Virus record (IMG/VR): IMGVR_UViG_3300046359_000009
Span: 1 to 46,227 of that record
Strand: one strand, 5' to 3'
DNA: 46,227 bases
Origin: a virus
The translations under genes were made by a program, and so were the position numbers. Of this stretch, positions 8,559 to 11,600 are shown piece after piece (position 1 is the first letter of the stretch; every line of letters begins with the position of its first letter). The notes under the pieces were generated by a model, which searched no databases, was not told the origin of the DNA, and saw only the letters and a list, made by a program, of their open reading frames with translations.

Positions 8559-8635
8559 GCGAGTGTAGCTCAGTTGGATAGAGCACTGGTCTTCTACACC
8601 ATTGGTCGTGGGTTCGAATCCCTCCACTCGCACCA
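8559..8635 (+). tRNA. tRNA-Arg(UCU)
   Basis: A complete 77-base cloverleaf. The acceptor GCGAGTG pairs with CACTCGC. The D-arm is GCTC-AGTTGGATA-GAGC. The anticodon loop is CTTCTAC, with U33, anticodon UCU and A37. The T-arm has the normal TTCGAAT loop, and CCA is encoded. It reads AGA and AGG, codons rare in many Gram-negative hosts but common in AT-rich phages. This is the only fully ordinary tRNA in the cluster. Confidence 0.93.
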
Positions 8636-8641
8636 AACAAT

Positions 8642-8743
8642 GTAACTGTAGCTCAGTTGGTAGAGCAGGAACCTCTTCACGGTGAAGGACCAAATGCCAG
8701 AGGGTAAACCAAGCCGATGGTTCGAATCCATCCAGTTACACCA
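8642..8743 (+). tRNA. tRNA-like gene with a displaced, enlarged anticodon/variable region
   Basis: The outer parts are canonical: acceptor GTAACTG/CAGTTAC, D-arm GCTC-AGTTGGTA-GAGC, T-arm GATGG-TTCGAAT-CCATC, and encoded CCA. Between the D-arm and T-arm there are 49 bases instead of about 22. They hold no standard 5-bp stem with a 7-base loop. The best stem is CCTCT (8672-8676) with AGAGG (8699-8703), closing a 22-base loop in which CTTCAC and GTGAAG can pair. A Glu-like TCTTCAC loop (anticodon UUC) can be drawn, but with only three stem pairs and C at position 33. It may be a degenerate tRNA-Glu or a tRNA mimic that does not decode. Confidence 0.6.
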
Positions 8744-8745
8744 GT

Positions 8746-8864
8746 TTTAAACTTACGAATGAACCGAAAGGTTGCCAGCCTCGATGCCTTTGTACTTACT
8801 CGTAGATGATTCTAGATATATCTAAGCTGCGATAGTCGGAAATCAAAGGATTCGTAAGTTTAAA
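8746..8864 (+). ncRNA. Candidate structured RNA closed by a 15-bp perfect stem
   Basis: Bases 8746-8760 pair perfectly with 8850-8864 (15 bp). Inside are an AACC-GAAA-GGTT hairpin with a GNRA tetraloop (8762-8773) and a second stem, CCTTTG (8787-8792) with CAAAGG (8844-8849), stacked directly on the outer stem. An AT-rich self-complementary 12-mer sits at 8813-8824. No open frame with a ribosome site lies here. The element starts three bases after the CCA of the preceding tRNA-like gene and would be in the same transcript. It matches no RNA family I can name. Confidence 0.5.
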
Positions 8865-8877
8865 TTCATAAATAGTC

Positions 8878-9123
8878 CCGCTGATGCCTGTTGCTCAAAT
8901 CCCTAGAGTTAGCGGCAAACTTCCAGCGAGGCGGGTGTAAGTCCCGTCATTAAAAATGCAAGTACAAGTTGCGCTGTACTGCAGGATTTCCAGCATGCGG
9001 ATTGTCGTCCAATAGTGTAACGAATAATAGGAGAGAAATCTTCTACGGGAGCGAAAGACACTATAATACTGGTTTAGGGACCAGAGTTTATAGTAAAGTG
9101 TATTTATGTATATTTTACTATAA
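8878..9123 (+). ncRNA. Second densely folded non-coding region between tRNA-like genes
   Basis: Consecutive hairpins can be drawn: CCGCTGA (8878-8884) with TTAGCGG (8909-8915); GGCGGG-loop TGTAAGT-CCCGTC (8930-8948), which looks like a T-arm; AGTACA/TGTACT (8961-8980); TAGGAGA-GAAA-TCTTCTA (9028-9045) inside ATAGTGT/ACACTAT (9012-9064); CTGGT/ACCAG (9069-9084); and TTATAGTAAA/TTTACTATAA (9088-9123). No convincing CDS is present. It may be a noncoding RNA, the remains of decayed tRNA genes, or precursor spacer RNA. Too short to be a typical GOLLD or ROOL RNA, which also lie near phage tRNA genes. Confidence 0.4.
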
Positions 9124-9125
9124 CC

Positions 9126-9200
9126 GTGAGTGAAGCCGAGAAGTCAGGCAGCGACCTCATAAGTCGTTGGAAGCAGGAGCGTTACCTGTCGCTCACACCA
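9126..9200 (+). tRNA. tRNA-Met(CAU)-like gene with a non-canonical T-loop
   Basis: The acceptor GTGAGTG pairs with CGCTCAC (one G-U), followed by A and an encoded CCA. The anticodon arm is GCGAC-CTCATAA-GTCGT; the loop CTCATAA is identical to the usual bacterial Met loop, giving CAU. The D-stem has only three pairs (GCC/GGC), with a loop lacking the usual GG. The T-stem GCAGG/CCTGT closes the loop AGCGTTA instead of TTCRANN. This makes it unlike standard bacterial tRNAs and easy to miss in tRNA scans. CAU could also be an Ile tRNA whose C34 is modified. Confidence 0.6.
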
Positions 9201-9205
9201 AACAT

Positions 9206-9283
9206 GGGCAGTTACTGTGTAAACGGCTAACAGGTGTTTGTAACTCAAGCATGGCGGCAGTTCGACTCTGCCACTGTCCACCA
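9206..9283 (+). tRNA. tRNA-like gene, anticodon uncertain (AAC by position)
   Basis: The acceptor is GGGCAGT/ACTGTCC (one G-U), with encoded CCA. The D-stem is CTGT/ACAG, with GG in an 11-base loop. The T-arm GGCAG-TTCGACT-CTGCC is canonical. The anticodon stem TGTTT/AAGCA closes GTAACTC, putting AAC (Val) at 34-36 but a U at 37, which is atypical. The stem can also extend to six pairs, leaving a 5-base loop. A Thr-type TTTGTAA loop is present out of register. The identity should therefore be treated as open. The next gene's ribosome site begins 5 bases after CCA. Confidence 0.6.
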
Positions 9284-10923: not shown

Positions 10924-11565
10924 ATGAATAAATTAACTGGAACTCTACTCTACGTCCAACTCAACAAGCCTGTTAAAGCTTATGTCAAAGCTGGCGATGC
11001 ACCTAAAGCTGACGAATGGAAAGCATCTGTAGCTATTGTAGATGAAGACACTATCGATGAATTTGAAGATTATGCTAAAAGCATTGACGCAAAAGTATCA
11101 GTCAAGAAAGTCAAAACTGCAGAGTTTGAAGCCGTATATAAAACCGCACCACCAGAAGGCGCAGGTAAGAATATTTGGGTTGTCACTTTCCGTAAATCTA
11201 CAGAGCTAGGTAAAACTGGTAAGCCTGTACCTGATCTATATAAGCCGAAAGTCTTTGAGAAGGTTAAGAATACACTAGTTGATGTAACCAACACTAAGCT
11301 ACCCGGTAATGGTTCTATTGGTTCAATCAGTATTGATGTGTTTACTCGCAACAACGGTACAAGTTCTCTTTACCTAAAGAACATTCTTGTTACCGAAATG
11401 ATCGAATATGTGCCAGAAGAAGGTTCAGCAAGTGATTACAATCCCGGTGATGAATTCGGTGATGATACTCCTGCACCAAAAGCAGAGAAACCTGCCGCTA
11501 AACCTGCTGCAAAAGCTAAAGCTAAACCAGCGGTTGATGACACGGATGACGATATTCCGTTCTAA
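10924..11565 (+). CDS. Single-stranded DNA-binding protein, T7 gp2.5-like
   Basis: Binds and protects ssDNA at the fork and interacts with polymerase and primase-helicase. The first 165 residues are a beta-rich OB-fold body (KLTGTLLYVQLNKPV start, IGSISIDVFTRN, LYLKNILVTEMIEY). A low-complexity Ala/Lys/Pro linker follows, then the acidic tail VDDTDDDIPF. The final Phe and the acid run are the functional signature of gp2.5 and bacterial SSB tails. The 213 aa length is close to gp2.5 (232). The gene has its own promoter and a repeat-bearing leader, which suggests strong, regulated expression. Confidence 0.88.
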   Translation: MNKLTGTLLYVQLNKPVKAYVKAGDAPKADEWKASVAIVDEDTIDEFEDYAKSIDAKVSVKKVKTAEFEAVYKTAPPEGAGKNIWVVTFRKSTELGKTGKPVPDLYKPKVFEKVKNTLVDVTNTKLPGNGSIGSISIDVFTRNNGTSSLYLKNILVTEMIEYVPEEGSASDYNPGDEFGDDTPAPKAEKPAAKPAAKAKAKPAVDDTDDDIPF

Positions 11566-11574
11566 TCATATAGT
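11546..11574 (+). promoter_or_regulatory. Possible promoter whose -10 box overlaps the SSB terminator
   Basis: ATGACG (11546-11551) and TATAGT (11569-11574) are separated by 17 bases. The -10 box runs into the terminator stem that starts at 11573. The same TATA-AGGGGCT-TTCGG layout occurs at 19510, which is why I list this weak match. Confidence 0.35.
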
Positions 11575-11600
11575 AGGGGCTTCGGTCCCTACCTTTAATA
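11573..11600 (+). terminator. UUCG-loop terminator after the SSB gene
   Basis: GTAGGGGC (11573-11580) pairs with GTCCCTAC (11585-11592) around a TTCG tetraloop (8 bp, one G-U), followed by CTTTAATATT. The hairpin lies 8 bases after the SSB stop codon. Confidence 0.7.

Follow-up and report, generated by a model that had tools for sequence, protein, structure and literature searches.

For decades there has been debate over why phages carry tRNA clusters, whose genes have all been counted as decoding tRNAs. The tRNA cluster of phage T4 contains the stable RNAs C and D, which are small, stable and without an assigned function, and in the bacterial Y RNA YrlA the tRNA-like domain is circularly permuted, with the T-arm ahead of the D-arm (an order also present in the Rfam model), and a stem binds Ro60. 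The non-coding RNAs GOLLD and ROOL occur near phage tRNA islands (PMC12286853), and RNAs built on an engineered tRNA scaffold accumulate in E. coli (PMC3753655). Here we describe a predicted phage RNA that, as read from its homologues, is a retained tRNA core in which the anticodon loop has been exchanged for a covarying module and the encoded CCA has mostly been lost.

The element lies in the window, that is, the whole stretch of 46,227 nucleotides that was analysed (IMG/VR virus record IMGVR_UViG_3300046359_000009, positions 1 to 46,227), whose gene families are those of a tailed phage and which, among named phages, is closest to Limnohabitans phage DC31. Sequence reading, ARAGORN and Rfam RF00005 all call a tRNA-like gene at 8642-8743 on the + strand (Table 1), confirming the canonical acceptor, D-arm, T-arm and CCA that an earlier note had described there. 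The 7-bp acceptor, the D-arm and the T-arm with a UUCRA loop that define RF00005 are all present, and the model scores the gene at 49.9 bits while leaving the anticodon arm unmatched. Also as claimed in that note, 49 nt (element positions 26-74) substitute for the anticodon arm and variable loop, and within them the CCTCT/AGAGG stem (8672-8676 / 8699-8703) encloses a 22-nt loop. The element has no 5-bp anticodon stem with a 7-nt loop and U33, and carries instead an NAAGG pentaloop in a longer, interrupted arm; because a proper anticodon arm is missing, the ARAGORN label tRNA-Arg(acg) is spurious. Within the internal loop, the CA of the 5' side probably pairs with UG at 8695-8696, and the base that follows UCA (8680) occurs as all four letters among relatives. 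RNAfold, applied to the window element alone, returned the same cloverleaf as the minimum free energy structure with z = -1.39, a value that makes the single sequence weak evidence for the fold; as far as sequence can tell, the support for the element beyond chance is comparative.

Table 1. Parts of the element and the neighbouring canonical tRNA gene in the window.
Feature	Coordinates	Strand	Basis or remark
Entire tRNA-shaped element, its anticodon loop replaced by a structured module	8642..8743	+	ARAGORN, Rfam, RNAfold, covariance model, covariation
Acceptor stem, 5' strand GTAACTG	8642..8648	+	pairs with 8733-8739 (CAGTTAC)
D-arm, D-stem GCTC/GAGC	8651..8666	+	Rfam, alignment
Outer helix, 5' strand, 2 bp in the window	8668..8669	+	pairs with 8709-8710
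Middle stem, 5' strand CCTCT	8672..8676	+	covaries with 8699-8703: UA/GC/CG/AU
Internal loop, 5' side UCAN	8677..8680	+	alignment, mutual information
Apical hairpin GGT-GAAGG-ACC	8681..8691	+	closing pair 8683-8689
Internal loop, 3' side AAATGCC, consensus WAA(N)NGCN	8692..8698	+	alignment
Middle stem, 3' strand AGAGG	8699..8703	+	covariation with CCTCT
Bulge of 5 nt, A-rich (GTAAA), separating the middle stem from the outer helix	8704..8708	+	alignment
Variable loop AAGCC; GCC invariant in the family	8711..8715	+	alignment, mutual information
T-arm GATGG-TTCGAAT-CCATC	8716..8732	+	T-stem GATGG
Acceptor 3' strand, discriminator A, encoded CCA	8733..8743	+	CCA in only 9/43 members
Canonical tRNA-Arg(TCT)	8559..8635	+	6 nt upstream of the element; ARAGORN, Rfam

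Relatives of the neighbouring DNA polymerase gave the first three homologues of the element, in which CCTCT/AGAGG is replaced by CCGAC/GTCGG and an inner pair T-A by C-G. Pattern scans of IMG/VR yielded at least 43 distinct homologous sequences from about 23 phage groups, whose flanking regions had nothing recognisable in common. Several patterns were used, each with different parts unconstrained: one constrained the core together with some of the D-arm and left the T-arm free, and another fixed the flanks, left seven bases (the loop and its closing pair) unconstrained and returned NAAGG-type loops only. Because every collection scan used a partly specified pattern, ascertainment still bears in part on the true diversity and on the invariance of some patterned bases. 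A covariance model built from 11 members (R1) scored the members beyond its training set at 55-112 bits, with maxima for ordinary tRNAs of 52.4 bits in phages and 56.9 bits in bacteria; the three weakest members (55-56 bits) overlap the range of ordinary tRNAs and were retained because of their length of about 99 nt and complete core. A model of all members (R2), which favours them by construction because it was built from its own test rows, placed members at 81 bits or more (81-112) and ordinary tRNAs at 60.6 bits or less. Chance matches in coding sequence were dropped (L025, L034, L035, L037, L067-L074, L081, L084, L089, L092, L095, L108 and L123), as were all 28 matches from a scan of genome contigs, which were likewise chance coding matches, mostly of one recurrent coding stretch.

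The fold is supported by compensatory change. In an alignment of 46 rows fitted to the model structure (A6), 20 of the 28 base pairs show double-sided compensatory changes and 93.9% of cells are paired; the covariation score is 0.521, compared with 0.144 in shuffles (0/500 reaching it) and at most 0.092 in controls with slid partners, with kinship allowed for in the compensation counts only through the 23 flank groups. The acceptor stem alone has double changes at six of its seven pairs, and 98.6% of its cells are paired despite the sequence differences between lineages. A smaller, structure-free MAFFT alignment (A4) gave double changes at 8 pairs, 99% pairing and a covariation score of 0.318 versus 0.136, and when mutual information was computed without a structure the proposed pairs ranked first, on an alignment that had itself been fitted to that structure. 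Compensating changes in CCTCT/AGAGG among related phages, which the earlier note had set beforehand as its test, were found, the stem being both conserved and covarying. A normal tRNA with a simple insertion, named there as the finding that would speak against it, was not seen among the relatives; the homologues carry the same arm in the same register. Judged by these alignments, the module is under selection and is neither decay nor a chance insertion.

The arm runs from an outer helix through an A-rich bulge on the 3' side, a covarying middle stem and an asymmetric internal loop to the hairpin. Its consensus comprises an outer helix of 2-5 bp, a middle stem of 3-5 bp, an internal loop UCAN / WAA(N)NGCN and a hairpin GGY-NAAGG-RCC. 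The outer helix reaches 5 bp in other members (for example, UCGCU/AGCGA), and its pair 28-68 exchanges among GC, CG, UA and AU. The most conserved part of the element is the inner hairpin, which the earlier note had overlooked and whose AAGG is invariant in 43 of 43 members and whose closing pair is U-A in 22, U-G in 13 and C-G in 8. It starts 12-14 nt past the D-stem in all members but L091, L097 and L105, whose internal loop holds an additional hairpin, and the T-stem begins 24-27 nt beyond it; the motif does not recur outside the element in 490 kb of carrier sequence. The T-stem is of three types (GTTGG in 29, GATGG in 11 and GTGGG in 3), and acceptor stems vary freely with pairing kept. 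A tRNA body (acceptor, D-arm, T-arm and variable loop) combined with a covarying module in fixed register is thus found across the family.

The family has neither a 7-nt anticodon loop nor a constant U33, the first loop base being G in 23, U in 17 and A in 3 of 43 members. An encoded CCA is present in 9 of 43 elements versus 207 of 267 neighbouring tRNAs (Fisher p about 1e-12, with rows that are not independent); 20 carriers combine an element lacking CCA with tRNAs that mostly encode it, and the reverse was seen once. The discriminator base is A in 18, U in 17, G in 4 and C in 4, and pair 3:70 is not conserved. A CCA end with a conserved aminoacylation identity is therefore not a property of the family, although the window element encodes CCA, and the missing anticodon loop and U33, the free base after UCA, the CCA counts, the discriminator and pair 3:70 together argue against a common aminoacylation identity. 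These features point to an RNA that would be matured like a tRNA without charging or decoding. Charging may occur in the window's own lineage, because CCA is encoded there, and elsewhere CCA could be supplied by the host CCA-adding enzyme. The tRNA mimic proposed in the earlier note thus stands in its non-decoding part, given the conserved covarying arm, and is not supported in its dependence on CCA. Several more specific matches were rejected: an AlaRS identity (G3:U70 in just 5 of 42), an AUG reading frame within the insert (its third base is N), a CsrA site (ANGGA; 20 of 43 loops read AAGGG) and the 11-nt tetraloop receptor (UAUGG/CCUAAG), whose letters are similar, although base 39 of the element is any nucleotide.

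The carriers fall into 23 groups by similarity of flanking DNA, on contigs of 4 to 283 kb, with one copy of the element per virus record, and no flanking or neighbouring protein family common to all lineages was found. All 267 neighbouring tRNAs called by ARAGORN are on the strand of the element; a tRNA is in reach of 33 elements, and for 24 of these the distance is 12 nt or less; from this shared strand and these short distances, the element is very probably co-transcribed and matured with the tRNAs.

The surroundings of the element hold other unusual RNA features. In the window, a long imperfect hairpin (AAACTTACGAAT...ATTCGTAAGTTT) occupies 8744-8866 immediately 3' of the element and is missing in the close relative L026. 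At 8870-9105, adjoining the tRNA cluster, lies a conserved stretch of about 240 nt (GTCCCGCTGATGCC...CCCTAGAGTTAGC...GTCGTCC...GACACTATAATACTGG), probably a structured non-coding RNA; blocks of it are conserved in 7 or more related phages, and it has no Rfam match. It is followed by a tRNA-like gene with a CAT anticodon and an abnormal T-loop, AGCGTTA (9126-9200; RF00005 40.8 bits), and by a tRNA-Val(aac) call with an odd D-arm (9206-9283; 27.3 bits, below gathering). In the place of the window's canonical tRNA-Arg, L001 (~2000-2095), L032 (~480-570) and L011 (~11490-11575) have tRNA-Arg(TCT) genes with a normal acceptor and T-arm, TACCG(A/G)A for a D-arm and a long variable part, AGTAYCGTAATGGAGTCAATG. 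A tRNA-like pair with an enlarged middle (GAAGCTGTAACTCAGTTGGTAGAGTCAT...; L005 11569-11679 and L009 12001-12101) is possibly a second family of tRNA-shaped RNAs, to which L078 11136-11245 may be related. Tracts of 101-143 nt with large hairpins inserted in the middle (L078 10999-11125, L093 5940-6082, L094 2451-2551 and L087 8968-9084) are also tRNA-like genes and suggest that large phage tRNA clusters hold further tRNA-like RNAs with an extended arm.

The explanation that we favour, and consider fairly probable, is that of a phage-borne, non-decoding, tRNA-shaped small RNA that shows its AAGG hairpin to one putative partner. Host tRNA-maturation enzymes would cut the element out of the tRNA transcript, the tRNA body would provide processing, stability and a fixed geometry, and the RNA would stay un-aminoacylated. 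The extended arm would then offer the hairpin to a single specific partner and so sequester or redirect it while infection runs; the likeliest candidate is a host factor, protein or RNA, that acts in translation or RNA turnover.

Among the rivals, the strongest is a decoy for a host tRNA-cleaving defence (an anticodon nuclease, a HEPN toxin or a Cas effector), bound or cut instead of real tRNAs, and we regard it as unlikely. Countering tRNA-targeting defences is an established role of phage tRNAs (PMC10264068, PMC11555353), the element combines a tRNA body with a conserved exposed loop, and a sub-family reading YUAAGGR bears a superficial likeness to an anticodon loop of 7 nt with G36-G37. However, the loop is near-invariant over about 23 phage groups, whereas diverse nucleases should drive its diversification, and the mostly absent CCA tail argues against tail-cutting enzymes such as Cas12a3. 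In addition, most members (GAAGG in 23 and AAAGG in 3 of 43) have no U33, and just 3 bp make up the apical stem.

An intramolecular or ligand-binding role, in which a kinked arm docks AAGG on the GCC and T-stem to form a compact aptamer- or ribozyme-like fold, is quite improbable. It would account for the co-conservation of AAGG, the A-rich bulge, the GCC of the variable loop and the G-N-U/G-G-G of the T-stem beside free acceptor stems, but the invariant columns offer no covariation and the extra internal-loop hairpin of three members would alter the geometry. The idea that AAGGR pairs with the anti-Shine-Dalgarno sequence of 16S rRNA (UCCUU), with the tRNA body on the 30S subunit modulating initiation, likewise has a low probability. 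AAGG is followed by A or G in 43 of 43 members, which gives complementarity to UCCUU, and in UAAGG the terminal A is matched as well; however, a five-base match arises easily by chance, the R base is largely occupied in pairing and covarying with Y42 (U-A/C-G/U-G), and AAGG is never swapped for other Shine-Dalgarno subsets. We find it very unlikely that the gene is a decoding or intron-bearing tRNA, with the module either excised or serving as an unusual anticodon (AAG, Leu), even though the body is canonical and the window lineage encodes CCA: the module covaries as a permanent structure, excision would leave loops that lack a constant anticodon (AAGUAAA, AAAAAAA and 5-nt loops), U33 is absent and CCA is not conserved, and we know of no bacterial protein enzyme for such an excision. 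Finally, a decaying tRNA-Glu, which the earlier note had also considered, with a random insertion is scarcely credible. ACCTCTTCACGGTG looks like a tRNA-Glu anticodon arm in few members only, the arm is kept across about 23 phage groups, and the 43 sequences bear marks of selection in their compensatory changes and invariant core.

Searches beyond the collection returned no further member. The 55-nt central module had no match in Rfam 15 at E <= 10, and blastn against 50,697 named phage records of INPHARED gave at best D-arm matches to ordinary 75-nt tRNAs, an absence that is provisional because blastn is weak for a 55-nt motif; the 'tRNA-OTHER' of Rhodococcus phages was set aside as such a D-arm match to an ordinary 75-nt tRNA. 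A single-pattern scan of 84,980 genomes found no member, and a covariance-model search of 696 bacterial genomes (399 + 297; two phyla), with strict filters and 10-13 candidates scored per genome, returned only ordinary tRNAs of 73 nt. The literature contained reviews of phage tRNAs, of tRNA-targeting defences and of GOLLD and ROOL, and no account of this RNA was found in it. The family is previously undescribed among tRNA-like non-decoding RNAs and lies outside every family tested. Phage tRNA clusters thus carry at least one tRNA-shaped RNA that is apparently not for decoding and deliver structured RNAs as well, and annotators mislabel some of their genes, as with the call of tRNA-Arg for the window element. 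The fixed 11-nt hairpin with its invariant AAGG loop also provides a handle for a partner search.

Compared with the canonical tRNA (RF00005), the family shares the acceptor, D-arm, T-arm, a 5-nt variable loop with G46/C48-like bases and the location in tRNA clusters, and differs in that about 33-45 nt of structured module stand where the 7-nt loop would be and in that CCA and discriminator are not conserved. The tRNA-like domain of tmRNA is also a tRNA body with an extended arm at the place of the anticodon arm; in contrast, the family has a D-stem, a length of 99 nt, no tag reading frame and no G3:U70 identity, and neither ARAGORN nor Rfam called the element as tmRNA. With YrlA and the bacterial Y RNAs (RF02553), the family has tRNA mimicry without decoding in common, and the sole RF02553 match in the window (28.3 bits versus a gathering threshold of 69) straddles two adjacent genes. 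GOLLD and ROOL are hundreds of nucleotides long and unrelated in structure, and the element has no Rfam match to them, whereas RNAs C and D of T4, which are not known to keep complete D- and T-arms, are a lead by description only. The engineered tRNA scaffold has the same architecture, with a foreign hairpin at the site of the anticodon stem-loop, but carries arbitrary RNA, whereas the phage module is natural and conserved (PMC3753655). It is conceivable, at somewhat less than an even chance, that the family represents a class of uncharged, tRNA-processed phage RNAs of many lineages, whose AAGG effector arm captures a host factor, and with it the first case in nature of a tRNA scaffold employed for delivery; several such RNA classes may sit in phage tRNA clusters. 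By this analogy the element would be, in effect, nature's equivalent of the laboratory tRNA scaffold, and it suggests a scaffold that is both compact and natural for delivering stable RNA.
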